DNA of 64,000 bases from contig JAHRHY010000007.1 in the NCBI GenBank assembly GCA_019671135.1, forward strand, positions 1,488,001 through 1,552,000, in the 5' to 3' direction. The stretch's first letter is position 1; each line of letters opens with the position of its first letter. The translations under genes were made by a program, and so were the position numbers. This DNA comes from Linnemannia hyalina (Eukaryota > Mortierellomycota > Mortierellomycetes > Mortierellales > Mortierellaceae). Shown in pieces: positions 5,681 through 52,428 of this stretch. The notes below the pieces were generated by a model that searched no databases, had not been told where the DNA came from, and saw only the letters and a list, made by a program, of their open reading frames with translations.

Positions 5681-6800
5681 CCAAAGCAGAGTTGCGCAGC
5701 TAACCCAACACGTGGTTTGGCAGTCTCTGCCATCAAAAGCGCCAAACACATTATTGTGTACAAGCTGATCGAGATGCGCATTCTGCAGCCGCTGTTCGAG
5801 ATTGGACTGGATCAGGCAGAGGATGGACCGGGCGAGAGCTTCTTGGAGAAGATCCTGGATTCCGAATGGGCGGAGAGGTTTATCCAGAACTTGCTGTTCT
5901 TCGCCTTGAGGAATTCCACTGTCCCCCAAGGACGACCGCCTGCGTCGGACAAGAGCAAGGATGCTATCGCTGAAGTAATCTCGACGTTTAACGAGTTCAA
6001 GGAGGCGCTGTGGCCAGGGTTCAAAGCCCTCAATTCATCAAATCTGGCTTTGAGCAACATCATCGCTGAACTTGCACCCAAGATCTGTCTGGATCTAAAA
6101 CTGCATTGCAGAAGAATGCCAGAGACCCTTAGAACAAAGGTACCATTCATCCATTCAGTTGGTCAAATATTGTCAATGGGATGTAAAACATATTTTAACA
6201 CTCTATTTTTGTTTATGCAATGCCAGCTCTCCAAGTTGTCCATTGATTGCGATGGTCTTCCTGAAATGGATCAAGATGACACAGACGCTGGTGGTGATGC
6301 CGGTGCTGCTGATGTTGGCAAGGATGTGGACGACGACGACGCCCTCAAGCGATCCAAGAAGATCATTTTCAAGCTGGGTCATATTCAACTCTGCTGGCGA
6401 TACTTCCTCCGCTTACCATCATCCAAGCAACCCCGGTTCTGAATTCAGGCCAAAAATGAGCGATTCTTTCATCGACATCAACGAGGAAGCGTCGGTTGCG
6501 CTTCACTGGGGAAAGAAGGCAGTTCAGCTGGACAAAGTATGGGAAGACACCCGCTACACTCACAACTGAGCAGCCGCCAAACAGCGTTCTTCGTACGGAG
6601 GAGTGATCAAGGAGCTATTCATCGGGAACCGGGATGCCATCAAGGAAGCCAGGAACAAGCAGCAGACGACATACGGGAAGAGGACAACAAACATGGCTGA
6701 GCGTCAGGTGGCCCATCCACACATATATGGACAGTTGGAGCTCGCGCGGTATTTGTCGAGGAGGATCATTGTTTTCCGAGAACGGCACAACGCTTCCCTC
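5681..6800 (+). pseudogene. Fragment of an XPG/TnpB-like element, homologous to the 39.5-40.8 kb segment
   Basis: This stretch aligns almost throughout with the middle of the minus-strand element at 38.4-43.0 kb. Shared blocks include LIEMRILQPL, QGRPPASDKSKDA, LALSNIIAELAPKICLD, a conserved intron (about 6138-6226), LSKLSIDCDGLPE and NKQQTTYGKRTT. It carries a one-base deletion near 5686, an in-frame stop after RYTHN (6567-6569) and a 3-bp insertion, so it is dead. Homology starts abruptly at about 5681 and stops at about 6800, where unrelated sequence joins. The segment lacks the flap-nuclease and RuvC parts. It is therefore an internal piece joined to the next element by recombination or nested insertion. 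Confidence 0.85.
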
Positions 6801-6972
6801 GCGGCCAGTGAGGGTCAGAGAGTTAGAGAGTTATTGGCGAAGCCCTTGCATGACCCTCACTACGAGAGGTCCTTCAACCCACGTGGGGAGCCGCGAAGAA
6901 GTGAAGTGCTCGCTCGTCTTGATTCCTCTAACCTTTTTTTTGGGCACATATTAGGCCTTCTGAGCATTAAGG

Positions 6973-9242
6973 CACGTCCTGTATGATATTCTGTCCAAGG
7001 CATTCGACAAGGAGCTCACCATCATTTATGTGGACGGATCACCATCAGAGCAGAAGCGAAGAGAACATCGGCGGAGAAACGTGACCCTAAAGCGAGCACT
7101 GGTCAAGCTACAGACGAAGGTCAGCGGTTCAACCCGGTCAACAAAGCAGATTTTCAGGACCCGCAAGAACAACTATCGCCTACCCCGAGGGAGTCTCGAC
7201 CAGGATATCCTCCCAGTATTGATAGAGAAGAGCTGGCGGATCCACCTGTGTCCGTATCAAGCAGACACATGCCTTTCAAGAGTGTGTCAGGACGCCCTAG
7301 ACCCCGACTCTGTCATAGTCGTCACTTCTGACAGTGATCTGATTGTCTGCGAGGAGATCCGCCACATCATGATGCCCGTGGGCAAGACGAGGGAGTTGCA
7401 GTTGTTCGACAGGACCAGGCTCCTGGACCGCCTAGATCTGACGTCGGAACAGCACCTTCTCCTTGTCTGTATCGTAACCTCCAACGATTACGCCAAGAAT
7501 CTTCCTTACTTTGGGCTTCTCAGGAGCTGCGACATCATACGAGACTTTGATCTGACAAGCCTAGGGCCGCTGGGAGGATCTGGAGACAACGACCACAGAG
7601 CCGAGGCATTGATGCCGTTCATTCAAAACTACCTGGACGAAGTTGGGCGTCAGCTGGGGAAACGGAAGAAAAGATCGACGCAGCAGACTTCTACTCGACA
7701 CAAGCAACAGGAAATCATACACATTGTCCCAGAATATTATCGCCACGCAGTCACCGCATTTGACGAAAGGATGGAGACACCTCTGCAAGAACACCTGGAG
7801 CCGGATGACGGGAGTCCTCACTCTTACGATATCATTACTATGATACTACAGGAACTGTACTCTCGGAAAAGCCAGCAACAGCAGCCTCAGCAATCCAGGA
7901 ACGACACCCACATCTTCACACAACACCTACCATCAGAGCGAGTCCCAATCGAACTGTCTTCTACCAAGGATATGCTCATGGACACCGATACAAACATCGA
8001 ATCAGCACTCCCGTCAACATCCATGCAACATAATTCCAAGAAGATCTCCGTATGCACCCGGAAGCGGAAAAGTTCCTTGAGACACAAGCAACGGCGGAAG
8101 GATCGTAGTTACACTTTGAAGATGTATCGAGTTTCGTTGAATTCTTACTTTTCGTGGCATAGTTCACAGTCGATTCTGGACGAGTTTGGCGTGTCATCTG
8201 TCGAGGAGATTGATGTCTGGGGCATTGACCCCGGTGAGGCTAATACTGCGGCCTTCTGTGGGATTGTACGGGCCTGTCTCACTTCAATCGACACCAATGC
8301 GGCTCTGCAGGATGACCCTGGAGGTCGAAGTCAATCCAACTTCCCCGCATCAAGCAACAGGATCCTCCCTCCTGCCTTGGAGGTCAAGAATCTGGTTGTG
8401 AACCGGCAATCGCTCTTCCAACCTGTATTTGCCCATCGCAAAAGATGGACGAGTTGGAGTCCAGAAGGATCTACACAGGTCCAGGTCAGCGGATTGAGGG
8501 CATGCTATGGGCCGAACAGGAAAACACCCAATCTGATGATTCCACCTCTTTGCCGAGTATTGACGACATTCGGAGTCTCTTTCCCTCCCACCGACACGAA
8601 TAAGTGCAAGATATTGACACATCGGTGTTACGATTCTTTCAAGTTCAAGGGCTGCTTCATCGGCTCTACGAAGACAACAGGACCAAGACTATGAACTTGT
8701 CATTAAAGAAAACAATGAAGGCAGAACTCGACCTAGCGATAGACACCATCCTCAAGGAATGCCCGAAAAAAACGCTCTTCTGCTATGGGAACAGTTCCTT
8801 TAGAACGGGCATCAACCTTGCATCACCACACGAGGCGTTCAAGGCAAAGGTAAAGAGGGTTTTCATTTTATTGTCTTTGTCTTCTCTTCATTGTTTCTGT
8901 CCGATCCAATACTAAGAAAGAAAACGCTGACCATATTTATTTCCTATATGATTATAGGAATATGCGGCAGCAGCCGGTCATGTTGTTGTCCTGGTGGACG
9001 AGTTCCTGACGTCTAGTGTATGCCCTACATGGCTGGAGACCGGGGATGCGTCCCGGCTGGCAGAGTCCACCATCCGATCCTGCGTGTGTCTCGAATGTGG
9101 TAGATGGATCCACAGGGATCTCGTCGGAGCCCATAACATTGCCGCTGCAGGAGAGGTTTGGATCTGGACCCTGACAAGGACGTTGCCCCTAAGTCGCAAG
9201 ATCCCCGCTGGACAGTCTGGAGGAGCCACCCTCCATAGTTAA
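6973..9242 (+). pseudogene. XPG/FEN1-like nuclease joined to a TnpB/Fanzor-like RuvC-zinc-ribbon domain (family B), frameshifted
   Basis: After an acceptor near 6971 the protein begins HVLYDILSKAF with VDGSPSEQKRREH, the metal-binding and lysine segment of an XPG N-region. At 7255-7360 follow YQADTCLSRV and VVTSDSDLIV (I-region acidic cluster), then SNDYAKNLPYFG (helix-hairpin region). After a low-complexity linker comes WGIDPGEANTAAF at about 8218, a RuvC-I-like Asp. The frame then breaks near 8440 and a stop lies near 8600. Later parts read LFCYGNSSFRTG, an intron (about 8851-8957), VDEFLTSSVCP, CVCLECGRWIHRD and GAHNIA, which match the TnpB/Fanzor zinc ribbon and RuvC-III. The first zinc C-X2-C is CPTW here. 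Both nuclease halves are recognisable but the gene is not expressible as one protein. Confidence 0.75.
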
Positions 9243-12200
9243 AACTAGACTACCTCACCTCCGCCGAAAACGGAGTCTCAATTATCCCAGTGATGTCTTT
9301 TGACAGTCGAATGGATAGAAGCTCAATCTTTCTCTTCCTCATCATCCTGTTTCTTCCGTTTGCCTTTGGTCACCTTTTTTTCTCCCTTGCCCTTCCCCTT
9401 TGCGTGTCTCTCTCGAACCCATACCACCAGCCGCCGTTTCTTGCTGAGACGCCACCAGTGCCAGAGCGAGTTCGCTGAGGCGCAGTGAACGGAAACACCA
9501 TGCCCTCCACTCTATTTGCTGAGCGTGACGTCGGGGGCGGGGCTTTGATAGTTTTTTTGCCACCTTCCCTTCGATTGTCAACTTTTAACCTACTTTCTTC
9601 TTGTACATTTGGCTCAAACCGCTGGACTCTTCAACCCTCTCAGCGCCTTAACTCAACTTATTGAAATCACTTGGACAAAACTGCAATATAGCAAAAGTAA
9701 ACCACCCTTTACCTAGCATTCCACTACACAACTTGACGCCTTCAACCCATACCCCCTTTCCACTTTTTTTCTTACTCTTCTTTCTAGCGCAGGCGAGGAG
9801 ATACCATTCGTTGGGGAGGCGCCAATTCTTCTTTCTTGTTCATTTTCGCATTGCAGTCTTGCGAATGCTGATAACCTCTTCACTTGATACTTTTGAGGGC
9901 AGGCGTATTCGGCGTTGGGTATGGTTCATTTTTCTTTTTCTCGTGGTGTCTCATTCCCTCACTTTTCAAGGCGACAAAAAGACTTGGACAGGAGGCGAGG
10001 CAGACGAGCTATGAGAGGGGTTTTGGTGCAAACAAAGACTTGCCATTGCGAAAGAGTTCACTCTTTCCTGTGTTGTTTGTCCTGAACTTCCCCTCATTGA
10101 CCCCCTCTTTGTCCCCACACCCAACCCGGGCACTTGCTGTTTACTCCCTGCAAAACTTTTTGATGACCCTCTCTTTCCTTGACTTCCAATTTTTGTGGTG
10201 CTTGCTGTTCGAGTGGGTTGGATCACTTCTGTTGCGAAAAGAAACTGAGAAAGATATGCCAACACAGATGGGATGAAGATGCGAAAGGGGAGCATCAATG
10301 GATGAACTGAGGACGAAGGGATGACAACTGTGATAAAAAATACTGAAGGGAATGTCCAGCGGAGAGGTAGGAAGGCCAGTGTAAGAAATCAGGGGTTTAC
10401 AAGTGATATGCCAAAGACGGAAGATGGAGCATCGAAAGGGATCATAAGAACTACGATACAGATGGGAAGGAGAGTGGGAATCGCAATATTGACACGAGAA
10501 AGCGGCATCACGAAAATGAAGCAATGACAGATGGTACGTAAAATATAAAAGTTTAAGCAGCATGGAACTGATGCGCGATCAAAAAAAAGGAAATGAAAAG
10601 GGAAAGAAGACTCAAGACTCAAAAATCAAGTCCAAAACACAATAAAACAATAACGACACGAAGCGTGCCGTGACCATTGATCGGAAAAGAAAGGTGAAAC
10701 GGTCAGTGAGAGCTATCATCAGGAAGAAAATAAAGAATAAAAGGGTAGACGCGTAGGCGGAGAGCACAAAGTGAGTCCTTACGTTTAGGTGGGGATGGTG
10801 GCCGCTTTGGTTACTCGCTCTTCCATGGGGGTTGTGAAGATATGATGGCGAGGTTTGATGAGGCGCCTGGCTCGCAAACTCCATGCGATGAGCCACCATG
10901 AAGGCATTTAGGATTGCGATGGAGCGTGTTGGCAGGATGGATTGTGCTTTAGGTAGACACACCGAGTAACAAAACGTGGTCACGGTATGGTTGCTTTGGA
11001 TCTATGGAAAGTTGAAGGGTTATTACCATGGGTCAGGTTAGTGAGGTGATGATGAGAACAACGTGGAAGCCGCAATAGTTTTAGTGGCGCAGGTTTCGTT
11101 TCAATTATCACAATCCTCCTTGAAATCGAGATCTACCCTGTGGTTTGTCGTTTTCGCATCGCGTGGACAAGTCTATGACAAAGACAAAGTAGAGAATGAC
11201 CGGACAAACCATTATTATTAACTGCGGACAACGAACTTCCCAATTGCTGCGAGTGAATTACAGCTTGCGGAGAAAAAAAAATGAGGGGACGAAAAAGAAG
11301 AGGATGTAAACAATTTGCCAGAGGATGAGGGGGCTGGGTGGCCACAATAGCCGCAAACGGCTCTTGTTTTTTCTTTACACTTGTCGAGCTTCTGCTCTTC
11401 TCTTCCTTTCACCTGTCCTTGTTGTTCTTTTTCGGGGAGAATTCTGCCGATTTCAGTCAGCATGCATCGAAGGAATTTGTTTTGTTCTTACTCTTGGCTG
11501 AATGAACAGGTGGTAGACCATTATTGAGGAACGATGAAAACAAAACAAAACAAACGATGAATGACCGTTCAAGAGCCCAGTGGAAAAATTGCGAAGAAAG
11601 AAAGTGAGCCATCGATGGTTTTTATTTCGAGACTGTGCAAGAAGTTTTCAAGAAGGACCACAAAAGAACATTCAAGTCGAGTTGAGTCGAGCGGCCACTC
11701 TGAGAGAAAATCCCACTTCCTTGTCTTTACCCCTGGATAAAACGGATTTATTATCGGGTTACGGCAACGTTTTTTTGTTGTTTTCTGGATAAAGAAGGTT
11801 CGTGGAGTCTTCGTTTCGATGTCTACATCGCCCCAACTCCAAAAAAAAAACTTTCGAGAGCCCCTCTTCTTCTTCGTTTTCTTCTTCTTTTCGTCAGTAG
11901 GGGAACATCAACAGAACCTGCCAAGAAGGCGAGATCGAGAAGACAGAAGGAAAAAAAAAAAAAAGCGGGATAGGAAACAAAAAGAAAAAAAGATGAGAGC
12001 GGGCGTTTTGAGTTGGAGACCAATTATGGCACATAATGAGAGCATTTCTGACTACAAAGTCCTAAGAGCGAGAGGGTTTGGTATTCATATTACGGCGTAC
12101 TGTACCAGAGTAGGGTTCTGTCCTACATTGCTTTGTCAGAAAGGCCCTTTATTCGTTGTACTCGTGGCTATCGTTGTGTTCAGGTTTGGATTAATTCACA

Positions 12201-33333: not shown

Positions 33334-36300
33334 ATGCATTTCTCTGCAGTTGCTATTGCCACCGCCTTGATTGCGGTCGCCAACGCTCAATCTGACTACT
33401 TCCCCTTCCTTCCCGAGGGTGCCTGTGTTGCAAGATGTACCGACGTAAGTCTCTTCCCTCTCACTGTCTTTACTCGCTCTCTGTCTCTTTTGCCAACACA
33501 CGTACATTCTCCCTTCTTTCTTTTATCCAAGTTTTCGTTCACTAACATGGTCAATTATTGCACACACTTATATTTTCCATTGATAGAATGCCGGAAAGTC
33601 CCTTTTCCCCGAGTTCAACGACGTTGATGAGTATGGACCTCTCTTCATCGAGTCTCTCTCCTATTCCTTCGAGTCTGGCTCGGAAAAAACTACCGCCTTC
33701 ATGATGAAATCGGGCATGTGCATGGGTTCCTGCTCCGCTGTTGAGCAAAATCTCTACCGCCAGCAGTTCCCCTCTAAGAAGCTCTGGTACCAGGCCAACA
33801 AGAGCGGCACTCCTCCTCCTCGTCCTGTCACCACCACCACCACCACCACTACCACCACCACCACCACCACCACTGTCGCCCCTACCCCCACTACTCCTGT
33901 CCTCGACCCTGCCTTCCCCTTCATCCCCAATGGCGCCTGTGTTGCCGCCTGCACACTCGAAGCCGGTTTGGCCTTGAACCCCAATTACTCTGAGGACCCC
34001 AAGTCTCCTTACTTCTGGGAGTCTATCTCCTACAGCTATATTCGTGGCTCTTCCAGCAACCTTAAGTTTATGATCCAGGCCGGCACTTGCATGGCTCCTT
34101 GCCCCGCGGATCAGATCGCCCTCTACAAAGCCCAGTACAGCGACCAGGTCAACTGGTACAACGCCAACAAGCCCGCAGTCACTACCACCGCCGTTCCTAC
34201 CACCACCACCACCACCACTACCACCACCAGCGCTCCTCCAGTCGTCACAACCACCCCCCCAGGTGTCGACCCAGCCTATCCCTTCCAGCCCAACGGTCCC
34301 TGTGTCCAAAACTGCATCAACACTGTCGGCAAGGCCATGTTCCCCAACTTCTCTGACGATCCTAAGTCTCCTTACTTCTTTGAGTCGCTCTCGTACTCTT
34401 TTGAGTCTGGATCAGAGAACACCAGAAACTTCATGACCAGCGTCGGCATGTGCCAGGGCAAGTGCCCCCCTGCCGAGAACGAGCTCTACTCTGCCCAGTT
34501 CTTTGACCAGAAGGTTTGGTACAACGCCAACAAGCCCCAGCCCACCACCGTCGCCCCTACTGTTCCCACTACTACTACCACCACCACCACCACCACCAGC
34601 GCTCCTCCAGTCGTCACAACCACCCCCCCAGGTGTCGACCCAGCCTATCCCTTCCAGCCCAACGGTCCCTGTGTCCAAAACTGCATCAACACTGTCGGCA
34701 AGGCCATGTTCCCCAACTTCTCTGACGATCCTAAGTCTCCTTACTTCTTTGAGTCGCTCTCGTACTCCTTTGAGTCTGGATCAGAGAACACCAGAAACTT
34801 CATGACCAGCGTCGGCATGTGCCAGGGCAAGTGCCCCCCTGCCGAGAACGAGCTCTACTCTGCCCAGTTCCCTGACCAGAAGGTTTGGTACAACGCCAAC
34901 AAGCCCCAGCCCACCACCGTCGCTCCTACTGTTCCCACTGTTCCCACTACCCCCACTACTACCACAACTACCTCTGGCCCCGTTCCTACTACTCCCAGCG
35001 GTGGATTCAACTACCCCTTCAAGGCTAACGGCGCCTGCGTTGCTGGCTGCACCAACAAGGTCGGTAAGGCCATGTTCCCCAACTATTCTGAGGATCCCAA
35101 GTCGGCCTACTTCATCCAGTCCCTCGCCTACACCTTCGAGTCTGGCTCAGCCAACACCGGCAAGTTCATGACCGACGCCGGAATTTGCATGGGTACCTGC
35201 CCCGTTGAGGAGCTTAACCTCTACCGCGCGCAGTATGACGCCCAGAAGGCTTGGTACAACGCCAACAAGAACGGAAACGGTGGCACCAACCCCCCTGTTA
35301 CCACCAACAACCCCACTACTACCACCACTTCTTCTGGCCCTCTCCCCACCGGTCCCGTTACTCCCCCTGCCGGCGGATTTGACTACCCCTTCAAGGCTAA
35401 CGGCGCCTGCGTTGCTGGCTGCACCAACAAGGTCGGTAAGGCCATGTTCCCCAACTATTCTGAGGATCCCAAGTCGGCCTACTTCATCCAGTCCCTCGCC
35501 TACACCTTCGAGTCTGGCTCAGCCAACACCGGCAAGTTCATGACCGACGCCGGCATTTGCATGGGTGCCTGCCCCGTTGCTGAGCTCAACCTTTACCGCG
35601 AGCAGTATGACGCACAGAAGGCTTGGTACAACGCCAACAAGAACGGAAACGGCGGCAGCAACCCTACTAACCCCGGCGGCGAACCTACCAACCCTACCAC
35701 CCCTCCCACCGGTCCCGTTACTCCCCCTGCCGGCGGATTTGACTACCCCTTCAAGGCCAACGGCGCCTGCGTTGCTGGCTGCACCAACAAGGTCGGTAAG
35801 GCCATGTTCCCCAACTATTCTGAGGATCCCAAGTCGGCCTACTTCATCCAGTCCCTCGCCTACACCTTCGAGTCTGGCTCAGCCAACACCGGCAAGTTCA
35901 TGACCGACGCCGGCATTTGCATGGGTGCCTGCCCCGTTGAGGAGCTCAACCTCTACCGCGAGCAATACGACGCCCAGAAGGCTTGGTACAACGCCAACAA
36001 GAACGCCAACGGCGGCGGCAGCGGCGGCGACCCCACTAACCCCGGCGGTGACCCTACCACCCCTCCCACTGGCCCCATCACCCCTCCTGCCGGCGGATTC
36101 GACTATCCCTTCACGCCTAACGGTCCTTGCGTCCAAGGATGCACACTCGAGACCGGTAAGGCCATGTTCCCAGAATACTCCGAGGACCCCACGTCGCCCT
36201 ACTTCATCCAGTCTCTCGGCTACTCCTTCGAGTCTGGCTCGGACAACACCCAAGAGTTCATGACCAAGGCCGGTATGTGCATGGGCAAGTGCCCTGCCGC

Positions 36301-36544
36301 CGAGCTCGAGCTCTACACCAACCAGTTCACTGCGCAGAAGGCCTGGTACCTCGCCAACAAGAACGCTGGTCTCAACGCCACCGCCACCCCCACTGGCCCC
36401 GTTACCCCCACGGACCCCGCTACTGGTCTGCCCACCACCGTCCCTAGCACCGGCGGAGACCAGGGAAGCAGCGCTGTCAAGTTTGCGGCCTCTGGATTGG
36501 CCACTCTCTTGGCCGTCGTCTCTGCTCTCGTTGTTGTCGCTTAA
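33334..36544 (+). CDS. GPI-anchored cell-surface protein with eight cysteine-paired repeat domains
   Basis: Two exons (33334-33444, 33587-36544) give 1,022 residues. Signal peptide MHFSAVAIATALIAVANAQ is followed by eight domains of about 85-90 residues. Each runs from a YPF.PNG.CV..C opening through SEDPKSPYF, a SLSYSFESGS-like core and a CMG.CP block to a YNANK end, with two C-X3-C pairs per domain. Linkers are Thr/Pro-rich (up to a dozen Thr in a row), typical of O-mannosylated wall proteins. The C-terminus (SSAVKFAASGLATLLAVVSA and a short tail) is a GPI-attachment signal. The protein should sit on the plasma membrane or cell wall. Domains 3-4 and 5-7 are nearly identical in DNA, showing recent duplication or gene conversion. 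The ligand is unknown; adhesion or wall structure is a guess from architecture. Confidence 0.93.
33910..36363 (+). repeat. Coding tandem array, period about 360-372 bp
   Basis: Seven of the eight domain copies lie in register within exon 2. Measured spacings are 369 bp (copies 3 to 4), 372 bp (5 to 6) and 360 bp (6 to 7 and 7 to 8). Long stretches of copies 5, 6 and 7 are identical at the nucleotide level. Confidence 0.9.
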
Positions 36545-38140
36545 ATAACCCTCTATCACAGTGCATTTCTTTTAAACATATATCATTAAATCAATCTACA
36601 TTTTTTTTTGGGTCAAGTGAATTTGGAGGGACACCTACCAACTCACCACTCAATGTGCAAAAAAAAACAACAAGAAGTGACAAGTGCTCGTTATTTTGCA
36701 AAGAAAGGAGAGAGGAGCTGATGGAGTGCCCAATCATCATTCTTCATAGGCATATTTTTTTTCTCTATTCGCGCATCTTTTCTGAAGTAGAGTTGGAGAG
36801 TTAATGAGAGGTGACCTTAGTTTGATGACCATCATGACAACAACGCATATGTTTCTTTTCGTGTCCTGCAAGAGCATCGGATATTATTTGTCTTTAGTGA
36901 AAGGGGCTCGAAAGCTGAACTTGATCTTGAACAAAGGACTGCATACAACAGAAGCAGGGAACGCAACAAGGTGGCTCTTCATGAACAAAGCGTGGACTTC
37001 TACTCTTCACCAACTCCAGAGTCTCCAAGGTCTTCACCACCCTACTGTATAAATGGTCAATTAAAGTCCACCATATTGTAGTGGCCCTTTTTTTTTCGGA
37101 TGCAATCGTTTCGTTTGTTCTTTTGGCTGTGCGTCGCATGATTGTATGTAGGAGATGGAGATGTTTGATGTTGTCGTTTTATTGTCTATCGATGCTGCGT
37201 GAAAGATCGGATTCTGCGCGAAAAAAGAAGGAAGGCTGTGAGTAGTTGATCCGATTTTATGACGAGTCCGCATCCTTGTCGTCCCGTTTACTACATATAG
37301 TGAGAGAGTGAGAGAGTGAGAGAGAGAGAAAGAGAGAACGGTGTGGATGGCGTTTGTGAGTTGAAAGAAAGCAAGGCGTGAGGGCGAAGAAAAAAACCCC
37401 CTTTGAGATAATAAAAGGCGGTCTTTCCTGCAAAAAACAAATGTTTTCTTTTCTCTTTTCTCTCCTCTCCTTTTCAGCCTCCCCCCCTCGGCACCTGCCT
37501 CTACCGTTTGGGCTCCACTCGCCGTTTGAGCGACACGTGGTAAGATAAACACCTCCTTTCCTTTCTAAGCAACATAGAAAAGGATGAGGGTTCACGCGTG
37601 TGTTATTTCATTCTTCTCACCCTTTTTTCCCCCTTCTTCGTCCCATTCTTTGTATTTTCTTTCTTCGATCCCTCCTCGTGTCTCAGGGATGCGTGTTTGT
37701 TCATTCCTTTGTCTCATGTTCTTCCACACTCTGTTTTCCCCTCACTCTCCCGCCTCCTTCCCTTTGCCTGACCGGCATGATAATGTCATACGCGAAAGGT
37801 GATCTGTAAACTTATTGGCGCAAACTTCTTACTAACTAGAACATCTTTTTTCCTTCATCGTATCACTTTAGTGACAGGAGGGTGTCGAGAGGGGACCAAG
37901 AGGAGTCAAAACCCTCCTCCTCCTCATACCTAAATGCCCACAATCCCGACTTGGCACGGGTGGCCATTTGGTCACGTCTAGGGATGTGGGTGCGCTGGCA
38001 TGGTGGTCAGCCTGGGGGGCGTCTGGCCGTTCCAGCACTGACATATGCTGTTGGAGGAAGCCGTCATGGGGGTGCTAAGCCTAACCTTCTTTTTGTTAGG
38101 ATGAGGTCGCGTGACATACTGGGATAGCTTAGGAGGGCAA
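36545..38140. other. Intergenic region with GA-rich repeat
   Basis: Begins with the 3' flank of the repeat protein gene and includes a GAGAGTGAGAGA-type simple repeat at 37298-37340 and pyrimidine tracts at 37600-37760. From about 37880 the composition changes (GC-richer, CCTCCTCCTC), possibly the outer end of the mobile-element block. No gene recognised. Confidence 0.45.
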
Positions 38141-38239
38141 ACTATGGTTTCGCGGGACTATGGGTTCGCGGGCAATGTGGAGTGGTAGGAACCAATGCGA
38201 TCGGGGGATTATGGGATCGCGGAATCATGGGCTCGACAG
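38141..38239. repeat. Imperfect 16-bp repeat array downstream of the nuclease element
   Basis: ACTATGGTTTCGCGGG (38141-38156) and ACTATGGGTTCGCGGG (38157-38172) are followed after a 35-bp gap by ATTATGGGATCGCGGA (38208-38223) and ATCATGGGCTCGACAG (38224-38239). The array lies 158-256 nt beyond the stop of the minus-strand nuclease gene. It may mark the element end or a structured non-coding RNA. Confidence 0.75.
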
Positions 38240-38396
38240 ATGATTGTGTGTACATTTGTAAACTTGCATTTTTGTAGTTATGCTGAATTGGGGCAGTGGG
38301 GCAACCGAGGACAAACATACGCCTATGGACTTCTTTTTCGCTATCCCTTAATCCGTAGAAGGGGATAATGTAAACTATAGTTTCTATCTATAGAGG

Positions 38397-41300
38397 TTAG
38401 GTTTGTTTGGGGGGTCTTGCAAGGGGCTCGGGCCGTCCTAGAGACTTGAGGTACTGTTCTCCGATCAAAGCGATGTTGTGCGCCCCCACTCCATCTCGGT
38501 GAATCCACCGAGTGCACTCAACACAGGCGCATGTCCTCATCGACGGCTTGGCGAGGCGGGTGGCTCGGTTCTCAACCACACATGTTGGACACATGGTGGA
38601 AGTAAGATACTCGTCGACCAGGGCAGCCTTGTATCCGAGCGCAGCACTCTATCGGTGCAGGAATAATAAAATTGTGTTCCATAGATTTGCCATGGCATCA
38701 TGAGTGCACACAATCAAGACAAAAAGATACAACCATGCCTTTCACAATTTTTTTTTGCCTTTCGTACCTGCTGTAAAAGACGTCTGAGAAACGTGGTGTG
38801 CACCGAAGAGAGATTAAAGCCAGACCGGAAGGTTCCATTCCCCAGGGCAAAAAAAACTTTTCTTTGGTGGACGGGTACGCCCTCACATGCCTCATCCACC
38901 ATCCGCAAAACGCCAGCGACGGCCAGATCCAACTCCGACATTTTCGCCATTCTGTGCTCGTGAACCGCTACCTTCTATTCTCTTGACGCGTAAATCCCGT
39001 GGATCGGCGGTTCCTGCTCGTAGTACTTCTTGTGAGCTGCCGTCAAAGCATCCAACGAGGTGTCGTAGTTCGTTGAGGGGAGAGAATTCTCTAGGTCGTG
39101 GACAGACGGGAGAGTGGTGAGCTTGTCCAGGTCGGTAATCCGTGTCCAAAGGGATGAGTCGACAACATCGCCTGGACCAGCTGTTGGGTGTCGCCTTTTC
39201 CAATGCTGTTCCCAATCTCGGAAGGCCAGAGTAGGCTAGTATAGGGAGGCCCTCTTGATCAGCAGATTGATGACTTTTCCACCGGGAAGTGTCAAACAAA
39301 ATGCACCACTCACTACCTCTCCGGGATCAATACCGACGACAATGACTGAATCCAGGTCGTCGCCAAACGCGTCGATAAGATGCTGCCGCGTTGGATAAAG
39401 CTTCTCGATCCTAGAAAGAAACTCACTGTAATTTGGGGATTGGCGGGGTTTTGTAAAGTCATACGCGAGAATCTGCAGCTGGTGGCCATCCGTCCTATAT
39501 AGTTGTTGAGGGCGTAGCGGTAAGAACGCGGCTGCTGACGTGGGGTGGGAAGAGGCGGTGGGGTGGAGGTCGTCGATGACGATGACGTTGATGATGGCAA
39601 CGGTGGTGTCGGGGCCGTGAAGGAGGCGTTGTGCCGTTCTCGGAAAAAATTGACCTTATTCGTCAAATACCGTGCGAGCTCTAACTGTCCGTAGATGTGT
39701 GGATGGGCCTCCTCACGCTCAGCCATGGTTGTTGTCCTCTTCCCGTACGTCGTCTGCTGCTTATTCCTGGCTTCCTTGATGACATCTCGGTCACCGATGA
39801 ATAGTTCTTTGATCACCTCTCCGTACGAAGAACGCTGTTTTGCCGCTGCCCAGTTGTGAGTGTAGCGGGTGTCCTCCCATACGTTGTCCAACTGAGCTGC
39901 CTTCTCTCCCCAGAGAAGCGCAACCAACGCTTCCTCGTTGATGTCAATGAAGGAATCGCTCATTTTGGCCTGGGTGCAGAACCGGGGCCGCTTGGATGAT
40001 GGTAAGAGGAGGAAATATCGCCAGCAGAGTTGAATATGACCCGGCTTGAAAATGATCTTCTTGGATCGCTTGAGGGCGTCGTCGTCGTCCACACCCTCGT
40101 TAACGTCAGCAGCCCCGGCATCACCACCAGCGTCGGTGTCATCTTGATCTATTTCAGGAAGACCATCGCAATCAATGGACAGCTTGGAGAGCTGGCATTG
40201 CATAAACAAAAGGAGTGTTAAAATATGTTTTACACCCCATTGAAAATATTTGACAAACTGAATGGATATGGATAGATGGTACCTTTGTTCTAAGAGTCTC
40301 CGGTATTCTCCTGTAATGCAGTTTTTGATCTAGGCAGATCTTGGGTGCAAGTTCCGCGATGATATTACTCAAAGCCAGATCCGTTGAGTTGAGGGCTTTG
40401 AACCCTGGGCACAGCGTCTTCTTGAACTCGTTAAACGTCGAGATTGCTTCAGCGACAGCATCCTTGCTCTTGTCCGACGCGGGTGGACGTCCTTGGGGGA
40501 CAATGGAATTCCTCAAGACGAAGGACAGTAGGTTTTGGACAAACCTTTCCGCCCAATCGGAATCCAGGATCTTCTCCAGGAAGCTCTCGTCCGGTCCATC
40601 CTCTGCCTGGTTCAGTCCAGTCTCGATCAGCGGCTGTAGAATGCGCATCTCGATAAGCTTGTACACAATGTGTTTGGCGCTATTGACGGTAGAGACTGCC
40701 GAACTCACGTGTTGGGTTAGCTGCGCAACCTCTGCTTTCGACAGATTGGTTGATCTTCCTAGGCAGCCTTGCAGGGATCCAGTCGTGAGCGTGACCGTTG
40801 CGAAAACAGACTGGAACGCTCTCTTCAAGGCCTTGGGTCCAGCTATTCCTTTAGGTTCGCCAAGGAGTTTTTTCTTTTTCTTCTTGGCAGCGGGGGCAGG
40901 CACTTGGTTGATACGGGGGGATTGCTCCTTGGGCTTTGAAGGACGGGGGGTCGACGGCTTCAATCCTGAAAGTTCCACGACATCAACAGGGCTGGCCTTT
41001 TCTAGGAAAACAGTGTTCGGCACATAGCGATCTTGCACGTCTGTGCGCGAGCGGAATCTAGATGCGATTTTGCAATGAGTTGTGTTAAGGTGGAAATATA
41101 TGTATATAGCTGGACAAGGCGGAGAAAAATACCAGGAAAAAAGACATACCTGGAACGACGCCACTTCTGTCGTCGCCGCTGGAGGGCCCGTGAACCATGT
41201 CGGCGTTGTTTTTTAATCTTTTGCTTGTGCGATGGTGGATGTTCGGCTGGGCCATGCGTCTGCCTGATGGAAGGTGATCCCGCTGATGTAGCTTGCGGAT

Positions 41301-43026
41301 ATGGTGCTGATCCTGCCTTGGGTGCCGTTGGGAGTGGTGGTGGCGTTGCCTCTGCGTCTGTCGCCGCCCCCTGAGAAGCTGGATCTACTAGCAGCCCAGG
41401 CGGCAACGATCCCGTCCGACTCGCGGAAAAGCGACGCCAATCAGTGTAGGCTTTGTTGAATTCTGTTTCCTTAATTATGGCCATCAGTCGTGTGTGTGTA
41501 TCGGCCGCCGGGCTGATCCTGTTGTTGTCCAGAGTGGTTTCCTCGCAAAGCACGAATGTCTTGAGAGCATGGCCGAATTCTGTCACATCTACACGCAGCT
41601 GTCGATCGGCCGTTTCGATCCTCCTCAGATCCTTGTCGTGTGCCTTCACCGTTGGGTTAGGATTGCATCGCAGTCGACGACGTGCGCTTTGGGTGGCTGA
41701 GTCCTTGATTGTACGGGCCTTTTGGTGTATTATGTCAAGGTAGCGCCTAACATAGATCCGAACCACCTCCACTCGATCTTGGCCAACCGTTCCATCAAGA
41801 CCTGTCATCTTGAACTGACGGATCGTATCGACATTGGATGTCAAGCCATAGGAAAAAACTCCGTTGGTGTAGTCGTTGTTCGATACCAGAGCGGCAAGCG
41901 TTAGATGTACAGGGGTCGGAAGGCCATGCTCGTTCAGAAGCTCATCTTTGTGGAAAGTAGTCCAAGTGTTCTTGACTGGCATGGTGACGGACATGATTGA
42001 CTCGAATGCCATGAGATCGGAGTCCTTGGTGATAACTCGGATATCTCCGGGTACGGCAGCGTTGTTGACTGTCCGCGCAATGCACGTGTCGCTTTGGTTG
42101 AGACATTGGCAAATCGTCCATCCACTCTGACGCAGTACTTCCGAAACGGCGCGCAATGCCTCCGGTGGTGCTCGGTACGACGCCTTCAGGCGTTTGTATA
42201 GCTGTCTTTTGTTGTGCAGCTTGCCCTCCGTGTAATCTCGTTCAAGTGTTTCCAACTGCTTGGACAGCGCCTGATCTCGTTTGCCGTGCGCCCATTCCTT
42301 CTCCATTGATCGTAGACCATCCATATGGAGCATTGTGATGTCCTTAGACAATCGTGAGGAGAGAATCTTCTCAATTGCGGCTCCGACAGATCGAAAATCC
42401 TATTGGAAACAGCGAATTATTATTTTGGTCACAGCAATTTAGCTTTTCTCCAGATAGCATGAATCATTTAACTTTTTTCCAGATCAGTACAATCCATTTA
42501 GCTTTTCTCCAGATGGTATGATTTATGGTACTTACAATGACCTTTTCCTGGGCGCAGATTGTGGTCAGAGCGCCGCTCTCGTCGAACCGAATCTGGGATG
42601 GCTGTGTTGCCAGCAATCGCTGCATGTCTTCAACGAGAGTCGACGACCCGGAGCTGATTTGGAGGGGTCGGAGGCGTTTGTTAGAGAAGCAGTGTCGGCG
42701 GTGTCCGCATCGTCGACGTCGGCTGCTCGTTTTGGGCTGGATGAAGCCTGCCGTGTAGATGTTGTTGTGTGAGTAGACATGCCCGCGCCATCGACGTCGG
42801 CTGCTCGCTCTGGGCCGGATGAAGCCTGCTGTGTCGATGTTGTTGTGTGAGTAGATAATTGACATCGGGCGGACTTTGCAGCGAACTGCACTGTTTTATG
42901 GAAACTCAGCGAGTTCACCAACGCAAAAAACATCGACGCAAAATCTACTTCACATCTCTTCTTGGTTAGATCTTCCTCCACTCCGTCTGTCGCCTTGATC
43001 CACCCGGTGAGATTTGTGATGCCCAT
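38397..43026 (-). pseudogene. XPG/FEN1-like flap nuclease fused to a TnpB/Fanzor-like RuvC-zinc-ribbon nuclease (family A), most complete copy
   Basis: In order on the minus strand: MGITNLTGWIK and DFASMFFALV (XPG N-region, from 43026); an intron (about 42531-42401); LHMDGLRSMEKEW; SDTCIARTV and ITKDSDLMAF (I-region, about 42020); and SNNDYTNGVFSYG (helix-hairpin). After linkers and introns (about 41150-41060, 40282-40200) comes a long middle domain, then RTDGHQLQILAYDF, VVGIDPGEVVSGAF (RuvC-I, about 39330) and KRASLY. The C-terminal part reads FFALGNGTFRSGFNL, an intron, VDEYLTSTMCPTC, CACVECTRWIHRD and GAHNIA. Breaks: a frame change near 42660-42700, another near 39500, and TAG stops at 39236-39238 and 38975-38977. 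The RuvC-I Asp and the HRD Asp remain, as do both zinc C-X2-C pairs. Such proteins would cleave DNA; RNA guidance is only inferred from the TnpB resemblance. Confidence 0.8.
42715..42855 (-). repeat. Tandem in-frame duplication, period 78 bp, in the family-A gene
   Basis: Two copies (42715-42777 and 42793-42855) encode STHTTTSTQQASSGPERAAD-like linkers. The 78-bp period is 26 codons and keeps frame. It lies just after the XPG N-terminal segment. Confidence 0.85.
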
Positions 43027-43689
43027 TGCTGTAATTCTAAGTAATTCACAATTGAAGGTTGATGGTTAGCGCGAGTCTGATTTCATAGATTCTCTCAATA
43101 GCACGGGTCGCAATCACTTTCAACATCGGCCTTACATAGGTCTGTTGAAGCTCAATTGAGAAGGGGGGCAGTTTAGGAGAAGGGGGAGAAGGGGGCAGTT
43201 TAAATGAAAGGGACACGAGGCGATGCAGAACGGTGAAAAAGAAGCTAGTGGTCTTTATTCACTCAGCCTCAGCCGCTCACTCAGTCACCGTGACCATCAG
43301 AGCTATGAGCTAGGGGTGAGCAAATTAAGGGGTAGGATGGTTCTTTCGCACCAATCCCATGCATTTCAGCCTCAGTGGACAGACACTGAGATGCAACGCT
43401 ATCGGCGCGGGCACAGGACCCTTTCTAAAACTCAGGGCGCGTATGATACTCCTAAATCATTCTTGGTGCAAAGAAGACCTTGCAGAGAGAGCAGATTCGC
43501 TGGGTGGGTTGAGGATATGCTTGTGTTATGCCTTCTCGTTTATTTTATCTGCACAGGATGCAGCCAGTCATGAGTAGTTCAGTAATTCATCGTTTGGTCC
43601 CTTGAATTTTTTCGAGACATAAGGGGATACTTAGGTAGGGGTGTCGCGACATTTGGCGGACACTATCAGATCCTTAGCCAGGAACTATC
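43027..43689. other. Gap between the nuclease element and the piggyBac relic
   Basis: Contains two close direct repeats of GAGAAGGGGGCAGTTTA (about 43159-43202; one has an extra G) and otherwise nothing recognised. It may include the 5' end of the nuclease element. Confidence 0.4.
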
Positions 43690-44728
43690 GGAACTCCCTT
43701 TGATGCATGGAAGAGCCGAAGAGTTTGTTGATAAGGTACGCATTGATGATTGTTGTATCCAGTAATCAGAAGAAGATCGGAGCCCATGCGCGATAAGTCC
43801 TGAGCTGAGTCGAATAGTAGCTGCATAACTGGTCGGCAATGTCGACTCCGTTCATGTGGTGGTTGTTGTCATCGATGATTTTGGGATGGGAAGTAACGCC
43901 ATGGAACGTCCTTTATGAGCAGCCCGCACTGACTTTGCGCTGGCGCTTGTCTCTCGAGGGCGTCTGCGATCTTGGACAACGGATCAGTCGTTGTCGCCGA
44001 GGCTGAGGGCATGGACGGTGAAGAGTATGGAGACAGGTCTATTGTCCATCCAGAACACGGTAAGAACCTGAAGTGGGTCTGGCGATTGTCGCGGTTAGCT
44101 TTTATAGCCTAGCAGAGGGCAAGAGTGGTAACTCTCTTCGTTAAATAAAAGAAAAGGAAGCGAAGCACCTATCTATCACAGGCTCTACTTTTGAGAACCA
44201 ATGTTGCTCAGGCTCGTTGGGGTTGGAGACATGAAAAAAACGCTTCAGTTGTTCGAAGCGGACGAGGGACATGAAGGTAGTGATGTTGTGTTGAGGACAT
44301 TCAGGGAAGGTTGACCAATACTCAGAGACAGAGTTCTGCCTGAACACGCCCATGTAGACAATGATGCCGAGGAATGTGCGCAGTTCGTCAGGTGTGGTCT
44401 TTACCCATTGGCGCGATCCCTCTCCTGTGCCGGCTCCTTTTGATGCTGCATATGCGTTAGTGTTGTCTGCCAAATCCGTCAATACTGGGTCGGAGAAGAT
44501 TTTCTTTGTCGGTGGAGCTGAAGCATCTATCACCCCTTCATCTCCTGCCTTCTCCTCCTCCTCGTCCCCAGAGCTATCTGTACCAGGCGTTGGTCGAGTA
44601 CGACAACGGACCGAAAACAACAACTCCTCCTCCTCCTGTGCCTCGTCAACCTCCTCCGCAGATGCTACTACGGTGCCTTGAGAGTCAGAAACGTCAAAGG
44701 AACCGAGGAACTCGAGACTGGAGTCCAT
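43690..44728 (-). pseudogene. piggyBac-type transposase (DDE_Tnp_1_7) relic
   Basis: From the ATG at 44728 the frame is open for about 195 codons. After an acidic lead come TNAYA, TPDELRTFLGIIVYMGV, YWSTFP and MSLVRFEQLKRFFHVS, the N-terminal blocks of piggyBac transposases. It stops at 44141. Downstream pieces in other frames continue the family order: FWMDNRPVSILFTVHALS, then VDIADQLCSYYSTQ with WAPIFF and INAYLINKLF near 43740-43850. The central catalytic region is shortened and several stops are present, so it is inactive. Clear terminal repeats and TTAA duplications were not found. Confidence 0.85.
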
Positions 44729-44907
44729 GAGTGAGTAGGGTGAAGTCGATGTGTGAGAAAAAAAAGGTAATGGGTTGCGGGATGATGATGAGAAAAAAAG
44801 AGCTGAATTCGAGAGTGATGAATGTAATGTGACGAAGACGACAAGGACACTCCCACGACGTAGTCTTCTAACCCGTTTTATTGGAAACCTGGATAAATCG
44901 AAAAAAA

Positions 44908-44929
44908 TGTGGTGCAAATTTGCACCACA
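44908..44929. repeat. Perfect 22-bp palindrome
   Basis: TGTGGTGCAAA followed directly by its reverse complement TTTGCACCACA, 180 bp upstream of the piggyBac ORF. It could be part of a transposon end or a binding site for a dimeric factor. Confidence 0.9.
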
Positions 44930-45182
44930 AACACACTAGGGGATAACGCAAAATTATCTCTTTCATTTATTTTCTCGGGATGGTCGTTCGTTTTTTTTTG
45001 TTTGTCCGCCATTCTAAATCAAGTCGTCAACATATGCACTCTCATCTATGTTCGCTCCGTTCTCCTACAACACCACATGAAATAAACGAAGTGAGAGTAA
45101 GTACACGCTGCAATCTAGGGTGTCCTTCATACGCAGATCAACAAGCTCTACATCAATGTGAAAAGTCAAATAAAAAGAGGTT

Positions 45183-49522: not shown

Positions 49523-52428
49523 ATGGGACTCTTTGACTGGTTCCCTTTCATTCGCCGGAAGGGGTACAACCTTGTCTTGTTGTACCACACCATACTCGGC
49601 AGCACCATAACTACCGGACGACGCCGTTTTGATGTCCTCGGCTCTAGTTTTCGCACCATCAGATATGCCTACGCCAGTCATCAGATATGCCTACGCCAGT
49701 CATCCTCAGGACGTCGCCAACAGAATACTTCAAAAGGAAGTGGAACGATTCGGGAATCATCTCAATATGACGCTGTACCTCGATGGTCTACAGCCACTAG
49801 AGAGGGCGAGTACTGCTCAAGTTCGAGAAGCGGCCCGAATGAAGGCGTTGGACCATCTTTCGACAAGCGTGGAAACTTTCGAAACTCGAATGGAGGCGGA
49901 TCTCAGGATCAGAAAACAGCACTTTGTCACCATCCGGAAGAACCTTGATTCGGCGTTCTATTGGTCCTTGTCGAGTCGGCGACACTTTGCGGAGTACATG
50001 AGAGGTGTCGGTTGGACTGTTATACTTTGCAATACGGAGGCAGATGTTGGTATCGCGCGGGGATACCCAGCCGGGAGACATTGTAATATCCTCGGACAGC
50101 GACATGATGGCCTACGCATCTGTCCAAACACTTTGGCGGCCTGTCTCCAAGGATTCAAGACTATCGAATTCAGCCGGAACCAGCTAACTGCACTGGCCAT
50201 CGTCTTTCTAGAAATGACTACCAAAGGAACATTTACTCCCTTGGCCCGGCATCCAACTACTCCATCATCAAGGCTATTGGACAAGACCAGGTACAGCTTT
50301 GTCAAGAATGACTTTTATTTGGAACCTTTCACAACCTCTTTATGTTAGAGTTTAATCTCTACCTTTTCTCTTTTGAAATACCCTTTACTCCCACCAATTT
50401 GGTGCGATCGGTCTCTGGCCAATTGGCCTTGGAATTCAAGAAAATATACAGGAATGGGACATTTGATCTCTACAAGAAGGTATGCAATGAAATGTTTTTT
50501 TACTGTCGCTACTATGTTTTCAGACACTTGTCTTCCAAAAAAAATAAGTAATATTGTTTTTTCCCCTTTGTTATGGGCTGAGATTATGAAGAAGATGGGG
50601 ACTCAGGGAACCACCGTCGACATTCAGATTCGGGAGGAAATTTCAGCGGCTGGGAACTTTCACCACCTTAACAAGCTCACCAAAAACAGCCGCAAGATCG
50701 CGCCCTTCACCACTTCCCAGCAACCCATTGTAGCCTTTTCTGAACGGGAGCTTGCCTTACTCTTTTGGAAGCGGAAGCCGTTAAGGGAGAGACTGGAAGA
50801 ATTTGCTCGCCAGGACCATACCCAGATAACGTCTACGAACGATCTCGAGACATGGATTACTGGGAAGGAGCCCGGGTACATCATAAAGCACTTCATCTGT
50901 GACGTGGCGCCCCAAGATCTAACGAGTCGCCAGCGGAGAAAGGCCGGTCACCGAGCAGCTGTAAGGCTGTTGTCATTGAACGAGATTGGAGCACACCTGG
51001 ATGTTGTCAAGGAAAAGCACCTCGACCCGTCGCAATACAAAGAACGATGATACTTGTTGAGGGGTTCCATTAGGACTGACGGTTTCCGTGTTCAGCTTCT
51101 CGCCTTTAAGCTGCGGGAACTGCAGGATGTCCGTTATCAACGTTTGTCAGAGAACCGTCTGCCGCCTAGATTGACACCCACAGTGGGAGGTACCGACTAC
51201 TACCTTCAAGAGATTCAGAACGTGATCACAAGCAAGGAGGACATTGAGCGGCTCTGACCCGGGATAAATATCGAGGATATCAGGACTTTGACCTTGGGCG
51301 CTGGACAGGCTTGCGTCATTGGAGTATTCGCGCATCTGCCCACCGAGTCGCCAACCGAGTCCAAAGACAAGGAGCCAGTCAAGAACGACTTACCGATGGG
51401 AGGAGTCATGGTCGCCATCCAACAGCCAGCAGTAGGAGCCGTTGCTCAGGATCTAACTCTCCTTGCCACAGCATAGGAAGTAGCAACAAGCGCGCTCATG
51501 AGATCGCCATGGCCGGTGTTCTTCAACCTCGCCGTCAAAAGCAAAGCGATATATCAGCCCAATTTCCGGTTCCGGAGGTGGTCGGAAAACGAAAAGAAGA
51601 CGACCCCAGATGGTGAGGACGAGTCAGTCCAAGACATTGAGATTAGATTGCCTCCTCTCAAAGGACAAAAGGCAAGTGTCGTCCACTACGTCAAAAAACC
51701 GGAGTTGGTTGAGACACGTTTATTGGAATTTTATTCTGCAAGCGACAATCGATACAATCGTCACGTTTAGGATATGAAGCGTGCAAGGCATATGGAGTTC
51801 CAATTGGTCGCGGATCAGCTCCTCAAGATTGTTGGCGGCGAAAATGGTCTCCGTTACGATCCTTCGAAACCAGCTCTCATTGGCGTAGGTCTAGGTCAGT
51901 TCTCGACAAGATCCCGACTCTCTTCCCTCCACTCATCCTTCCTTACTTACTTTGTCCAGAAGGTAAGCATCGTATTATAATGTTGTTCACCAATCAGCAA
52001 ACAGCCCTCCATACTTCACATGCGCCAGTCGCTTGGCTACGTGGTGGTAGGGCCCTGGATGCGAACTGTTTGTGGGCCAGGTCGACATCCGACGCCTCTA
52101 CTGCTCAAAGTGTCAAGTCTACCACCACCGTGATGTTATGGCGGCAGAGAACATAACAAATATTATCCAAGAGTATCTTGTGCGGCAGGAGCGTCCGGAT
52201 TGCCTCCACCCAGGTGCCGAGGACGGCTCCCTCCCTTGGAAGGCGAAGCGCGATGCTAGATCAAGTTCGAGCTCGAGCACTGCCACGGCTAGCAATGCCA
52301 TCAGCTGTACAGGTGTCCAAGGACGTCGTAAGAGGGCTTCAACTACCTCAACGCCAGAGCAGGAACAACCCCAAAAGTCCTCCAAGTCGTCCAAGTTGGC
52401 CAAGGCGTTGAAGGCGTCCAAATCATAG
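49523..52428 (+). pseudogene. XPG/FEN1-like plus TnpB/Fanzor-like nuclease element (family C), heavily decayed
   Basis: Begins MGLFDWFPFIRRKG (XPG N-terminus), then MTLYLDGLQPLERA, CNTEADVGIA, VISSDSDMMAY (about 50090) and SRNDYQRNIYSLG, the flap-nuclease series. Later come RTDGFRVQLLAFKL (about 51070), LTLGAGQACVIGVFA (51285-51330; Gly where RuvC-I Asp is expected), FNLAVKSKAIYQPNFRFRRW, IGVGLGQF, SLGYVVVG, then RRLYCSKCQVYHHRD and AAENI. Breaks include a 22-bp tandem duplication (49657-49700), an extra G at 50059-50062, another shift near 50210, TGA at 51255-51257 and TAG near 51474. The part that should encode the first zinc C-X2-C appears deleted near 52050. The element resembles families A and B in order but little in sequence. 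Confidence 0.75.
49657..49700 (+). repeat. 22-bp tandem duplication breaking the family-C frame
   Basis: CATCAGATATGCCTACGCCAGT occurs twice in a row (49657-49678, 49679-49700). Removing one copy joins RTIRYAYASH directly to PQDVANRILQK in one frame, so the duplication is a frameshifting mutation. Confidence 0.95.

Follow-up and report, generated by a model that had tools for sequence, protein, structure and literature searches.

Can a single gene of a fungal mobile element encode both a structure-specific flap nuclease and a Fanzor-like nuclease? The question is raised by a locus of Linnemannia hyalina (Mortierellomycota) on contig JAHRHY010000007.1 of assembly GCA_019671135.1. We analyzed a 64 kb stretch of this contig (positions 1,488,001 to 1,552,000; hereafter the window, in whose numbering positions are given) and searched the whole genome of 51.5 Mb in 50 contigs. 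An earlier note, made from the sequence of the window alone, had claimed that positions 38397-43026 hold one gene combining an XPG/FEN1-like with a TnpB/Fanzor-like nuclease. We found that the motifs it quoted are present on the minus strand, distributed over three frames, and that the limits it gave are the ATG and the stop codon of a gene. Five exons with GT-AG introns between them lead from the ATG at 43026 to a stop codon that ends at 38397:

42536..43026, minus strand: exon 1, with ATG and GT donor; beginning of the XPG-like module, including MGITNLTGWIK and VDFASMFF, plus a region rich in Ser/Thr.
41150..42399, minus strand: exon 2, with AG/GT borders; remainder of the XPG/FEN1-like module, including DG, I-region, KDSD and NDY, together with a basic linker.
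40283..41057, minus strand: exon 3, with AG/GT borders; middle region with no assigned fold, conserved across the family (alignment A1).
38768..40191, minus strand: exon 4, with AG/GT borders; middle region, then the first RuvC part (GIDPGE).
38397..38648, minus strand: exon 5, with AG border and stop; TNB zinc ribbon and last RuvC motif (DEYLTSTMCPTC ... CACVECTRWIHRD ... AHNIA).

The copy in the window is broken. Relative to a copy on contig C6, its exon 1 is frameshifted and its exon 4 carries two in-frame TAG codons and a frameshift, where the C6 exon is open over 538 codons; exon 2 keeps an open reading frame. The C6 copy is 99.5% identical over 6609 bp, and with the corresponding introns removed it gives a single unbroken frame of 1397 amino acids. 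Decay was rejected as the source of all frame changes, since four of them are GT-AG introns. Exon 5 matches the Pfam TNB model (PF07282) at 32.6 bits, against a cut-off of 26.3. The motifs go beyond chance because the genome contains 68 matches to the XPG piece (exon 2) and 115 to the RuvC piece, and because the C6 frame is unbroken. By our own reading of both genes, intron places are common to subfamily A, to which the window copy belongs, and to the gene at locus L069. The intact protein consists of an XPG/FEN1-family module in about its first 330 residues, a linker, and a Fanzor1-type module in about its last 800. That the XPG and RuvC/TNB parts form one real, joined gene is strongly supported.

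Both modules occur in single annotated proteins of seven genera and have long been inherited together. Two protein searches returned 12 and 40 homologues, all with names from Linnemannia, Haplosporangium, Podila, Mortierella, Dissophora, Benniella and Entomortierella, seven genera of Mortierellomycota; each search scored only about 8000 candidates, so absence from other groups does not follow. In a check that the earlier note had proposed, on homologues from other Mortierellomycota, two of these proteins, P0016 and P0017, bear both Pfam domains in precomputed annotation. In our own scan, P0016 lies above the TNB cut-off and narrowly below that of XPG_I (PF00867; 23.5 versus 24.9 bits), while P0017, from Linnemannia gamsii, exceeds both (XPG_I 28.1, TNB 52). 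We aligned 47 of the 52 homologues, excluding P0001, P0002, P0010, P0011 and P0050, which were judged chimeric or redundant. In 18 of the 47, representing all seven genera, every one of the four marker columns of the two modules is occupied; at least one marker column of each module is filled in 37, and the other 10 include many partial models. For 26 sufficiently complete sequences, distances in the XPG part are correlated with those in the RuvC part (r 0.714, a value reached in 0 of 2000 permutations).

The same pairing is seen across the L. hyalina genome. We compared 91 TNB matches (one of them below the Pfam cut-off) with 87 XPG pieces, a set that leaves out some listed rows. For 62 of the 91, an XPG piece of the same strand is found no more than 8 kb upstream, at 1257-3929 bp (median 2945), and misplaced controls gave 5/91 downstream and 2/91 on the other strand. 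Chance motifs and two separate genes were rejected on the basis of the annotated homologues, this genomic pairing and the correlated distances. An outcome that the earlier note named as fatal to its claim, XPG and RuvC parts that are always separate genes, was not found, although 29 of the 91 TNB matches are without an upstream XPG piece that we could detect.

Catalytic residues are largely conserved in both modules. The XPG assignment was made through relatives and a profile, because Pfam XPG models match neither exon 2 of the window copy nor the 1397-amino-acid protein. In a scan of eight proteins, XPG_I was above cut-off in two (P0017 and P0018), below it in four (P0016, P0040, P0013 and P0023) and unlisted in two (P0020 and P0027); it was not above cut-off in seven nearer relatives. 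Three fusion loci of the L. hyalina genome (L005-L007) exceed the cut-off. The window copy is linked to such relatives directly: its XPG piece matches C4:1735704-1736234 (E 3.4e-11), a locus that scores 25.2 for XPG_I against the cut-off of 24.9, and our own splice of the divergent C4 locus is identical to NCBI protein P0013. Compared with known structures, a profile of the 47 homologues matches RAD2, XPG/FEN1 and EXO1 chains at its N end (best E 3.3e-11). A profile of nine rows gave two matches in total up to E 10, an XPG/FEN1 chain (0.002) and Guillardia Fanzor1 (0.36).

The acidic active site points the same way. At the positions of the human FEN1 residues D34, D86, E158, E160, D179, D181 and D233, the alignment columns, counted over sequences with a letter there, hold the expected residue in 17/19 (D34), 28/28 (D86), 22/27 (E158), 24/31 (D179), 27/30 (D181) and 32/35 (D233). 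Judged by sequence, an I-region that falls within the family and these acidic residues thus indicate XPG/FEN1-family membership. Like XPG, FEN1, EXO1 and RAD2 nucleases, the module has the Gateway and I-region motifs and most of the acidic residues; unlike them, it is element-encoded, multi-copy and joined to RuvC/TNB, with E160 changed to D and E158 at times to Q.

The C-terminal module carries sequence features of a Fanzor. TNB was above cut-off in 7/8 proteins in one scan and 3/7 in another, and also in the 1397-amino-acid protein; several of the misses are gene models cut short. The C end of the 47-homologue profile matches L79, LaTranC, TnpB and Cas12f chains (best E 2.4e-7), and Fanzor1 chains appear in that search at E 0.16 and 6.4. 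A profile built from the C-terminal part of eight sequences picks up the Fanzor1 proteins of Guillardia (4.1e-4), Spizellomyces (0.0073) and Parasitella (0.18). The accessible text of Bao and Jurka (2013, PMC3627910) gives the Fanzor motif as D-X(125,275)-[TS][TS]-XX-C4-X(5,50)-RD. P0040 (1174 amino acids) conforms to it, with D886, TS at 1079-1080 (192 residues between), cysteines at 1083, 1086, 1100 and 1103, and RD at 1109-1110 (5 between). In the alignment, the motif columns hold D in 42/43, T in 31/34, S in 33/34, the four cysteines in 33/34, 33/35, 31/32 and 31/32, and both R and D in 32/32. The catalytic E of Fanzors sits, in the accessible accounts, in the loop ahead of the ribbon; here, of the 34 sequences with a residue at that position, 29 have E, three K and two G. 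The D-TS-C4-RD motif, this E and the TNB ribbon together argue for a Fanzor assignment.

Comparison with described systems shows both likeness and difference. Like the Fanzor1 proteins SpuFz1, GtFz1 and PpFz1, the module has the RuvC D, the E beside the ribbon, the C4 ribbon and the last RuvC D, and its gene lies in the right part of a transposon with a two-stem candidate RNA at the right end. It differs in that an XPG module is fused ahead of the Fanzor half and in its length of about 1300-1400 amino acids, whereas most Fanzor1 proteins have 600-700 according to the accessible text of PMC11423790, from whose main text the words “xpg” and “flap” are absent. The accessible part of Bao and Jurka (PMC3627910) likewise describes Fanzors on several kinds of DNA transposon, chimeric elements with one common end, and Helitron2 ends bearing hairpins. 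That part holds no XPG fusion and mentions piggyBac once, for a DEDDh nuclease; subfamily A also differs from those elements in that only a truncated piggyBac-type gene was seen.

The element ends just beyond the gene in a structured sequence:

38342..38398, minus strand: right end of the element, 57 nt; two hairpins, a candidate for the 3' portion of an omega-RNA scaffold, or else the terminus of a DNA transposon.

From stop codon to element end, subfamilies A to E all show ACCT followed by two hairpins with a short linker between them, the second hairpin being closed by TATCC ... GGGATA at the last base, and the stem sequences differ among the subfamilies. Against shuffled sequences, the right-end folds have z-scores of -1.07, -3.57, -2.11, -2.60 and -2.71 (subfamilies A, B, C, D and E, respectively). 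In L091 the second hairpin is missing, and Rfam gave no match in 38000-45200. The RNA scaffold of SpuFz1 consists of two stems and a linker in the accessible text of PMC10432273. We regard the right end as a candidate omega-RNA scaffold; a role as a DNA transposon end is equally possible, because left ends also have hairpins.

We best read this protein as a Fanzor1-type nuclease that has acquired a structure-specific XPG nuclease. In full, our reading is of a transposon-encoded dual nuclease, with XPG/FEN1 module, linker and Fanzor1-type module in one spliced protein, that would be guided by omega-RNA and assisted by its XPG half; from the sequence evidence, we give it a probability of about 0.55. 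We infer both the RNA guidance and the cooperation of the two nuclease sites. The Fanzor half would be loaded with omega-RNA from the two-hairpin right end, its guide read from flanking DNA, and would cut DNA matching the flank, that is, the empty site; repair after the cut would restore or copy the element. XPG relatives cut at junctions of single- and double-stranded DNA. The XPG half could act where the R-loop or break lies, trimming flaps or the displaced strand, and such trimming would favor keeping the element. The likeliest benefit would be element retention or homing, with excision and insertion probably carried out by an outside or lost transposase. A more specific proposal, a two-site eukaryotic RNA-guided effector in which RuvC opens and cuts the guided target and XPG cuts the flap or bubble in favor of homing, forming a lineage-wide class in Mortierellomycota, is tentative and falls a little short of even odds.

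Several results weigh against RNA guidance, or against two working modules. A relation to the Fanzor REC/WED regions was not found in the middle third, profile matches being confined to the last part of the protein, and whole-TnpB family models score far under their cut-offs, matching just the ribbon end. The subfamily A right-end fold, at z -1.07, would often be equaled by shuffles; a sixth right end (L095) folds poorly; a MAFFT alignment of six right ends yielded no two-sided change in base pairs; and with hairpins at the left ends too, those at the right could serve DNA. In the XPG module, the E158 position is Q in 4/27 and Y in 1/27, and the E160 position is D in 27/27. No XPG piece was found upstream for 29 of the 91 TNB matches, which may be Fanzors that stand alone, truncated copies, or fusions in which the XPG part was overlooked. 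Constraint on the protein is suggested by a subfamily B copy that, compared with four other B copies, has neither stops nor indels over 1350 codons and a ratio of nonsynonymous to synonymous substitution rates (dN/dS) of 0.35-0.48, a ratio that rests on just 18-31 differences per comparison. For exon 1 alone the ratio is about 1 in three of the four comparisons, and exon 5 has zero synonymous changes in three of the four.

Some of these points suit a true fusion whose RuvC/TNB half has lost the use of a guide and serves with XPG as a structure-specific transposition nuclease on hairpin ends. Hairpins at both element ends and the undetected REC/WED similarity speak in its favor. We consider it unlikely, since most sequences retain the RuvC residues in the D, E and D columns together with the four cysteines, as in guide-using Fanzors in the accessible accounts, and the structured right end beside the ribbon-coding exon is the expected place of a Fanzor RNA. 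Alternatively, both modules might be active in unrelated uses, with XPG a passenger for repairing DNA of the host or the element, and guided cutting done by the Fanzor half on its own. The distance correlation between XPG and the middle region (0.778) is lower than that between the middle region and RuvC (0.920; both over the same 26 sequences); therefore, the XPG half is the more freely evolving one. Subfamilies A and B also share 43% identity over the XPG piece, compared with 66% over the RuvC piece. An XPG-Fanzor pairing kept across subfamilies and genera speaks against a passenger, which we find quite improbable. An artefact, in which two adjacent genes or a chance junction were taken as one, could draw on the broken window copy and on public models that are chimeric (P0001 with its piggyBac start, P0011 merging two copies). 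It is already contradicted by the unbroken splicing of the C6 copy, as well as by the joined layout in annotated proteins of seven genera and the intron places conserved between subfamily A and the L069 gene, and its probability is very small.

The XPG-Fanzor element has spread recently in the L. hyalina genome. In the window it comprises:

38342..44945, minus strand: whole subfamily A element, 6.6 kb, with inverted repeats; TATCCC at one end and GGGATA at the other.
44141..44917, minus strand: within the element's left part, a truncated fragment of a piggyBac-type transposase that matches Pfam PF13843 with E 2.4e-20 over positions 8-115 of the 349 in the profile.

Its boundaries were set where similarity to the C6 copy stops, together with the terminal sequences of 12 subfamily A copies, whose flanks differ. 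The left end occurs at 18 places in the genome, namely the 12 subfamily A copies, four others with the same end and two partial ones; at least two of the four (on C1 and C23) lie, by coordinates, upstream of subfamily D genes. The terminal motif is common to subfamilies A and B, and reads TATCCCTTCGTC ... GACGAAGGGATA in the latter. A target duplication of 2-10 bp was found in none of 14 copies (12 A and 2 B), except for one 2-bp match, and the TA at each element end could represent either a target duplication or terminal sequence of the element itself. A plain piggyBac transposon was rejected, the transposase being incomplete and the flanks of the 14 copies showing no TTAA duplication. Subfamily D elements have an A-like left end (on C1 and C23) and a piece 92% identical to A exon 4, and subfamily B has a 428-bp piece 88% like A exon 1. 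The elements look like chimeras with a changing right-hand part.

Subfamily B elements are about 9.6 kb long, as at C4:809692-819274 (L085, L087, L026/L049) and in a counterpart on C50. To the left of their gene lie the piece 88% identical to A exon 1 and a 112-amino-acid open reading frame without a Pfam match; no transposase was recognized left of the gene in these two elements. The right end of one subfamily A copy is interrupted by a repeat of about 400 bp (C44:2227288-2233923, L042/L016, and L068:498-816), to which sequence on the left side of the C6 copy and beside a subfamily C copy on C5 is related.

Fanzor and XPG nucleases are each known. We found no description of the joined protein in the open-access literature searched, a scope outside which most subscription papers lie. 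In the accessible part of PMC11071296, viral contigs are said to contain “Fanzor flap endonuclease homologs”, whose layout is not given there. Relatives of P0016 were not found in viral contigs, a weak negative from a scan of six short patterns, and searching the protein collection with a profile recovered nothing beyond the profile's own first row. Public databases do contain the fusion proteins, named automatically as “XPG-I domain-containing” or “Cas12f1-like TNB domain-containing”. If both sites act in one guided reaction, the protein would be more than a variant of known nucleases. Were they to cooperate, it would be a natural counterpart of what genome engineers try to make by adding end-processing nucleases to RNA-guided cutters, and the benefit of Fanzors to transposons would become testable, as the XPG half should act on a Fanzor-made DNA intermediate. 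In one sequenced soil fungus the element exists in numerous near-identical copies, of which at least one keeps a complete frame.

The window holds three XPG-Fanzor copies in all. The other two are:

6002..9317, plus strand: second copy; a subfamily A gene piece (6002-6983), then a shortened D gene (6964-9239) and a D-type right end.
49523..52425, plus strand: third copy; a decayed, divergent L069-type gene from an XPG start (MGLFDWFPF) through a zinc-ribbon remnant.

The second copy is recognized by its frames, its end motif and matches at C48:1494976-1495698 and C48:1496955-1497140, and the third by its frames and a match at C48:1537523-1538284. Public model P0011 (KI688_011646) appears to merge the A piece and the D gene of the second copy into one protein. 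In the public models P0001 and P0002, a truncated piggyBac start is fused to the XPG-Fanzor gene under the name PiggyBac transposable element protein; in P0001, the piggyBac sequence stands in place of the real XPG start. Elsewhere in the window, a 947-amino-acid open reading frame at 33701-36544 (plus strand), with tandem cysteine-containing repeats and Thr/Pro-rich spacers, resembles a cell-surface protein.

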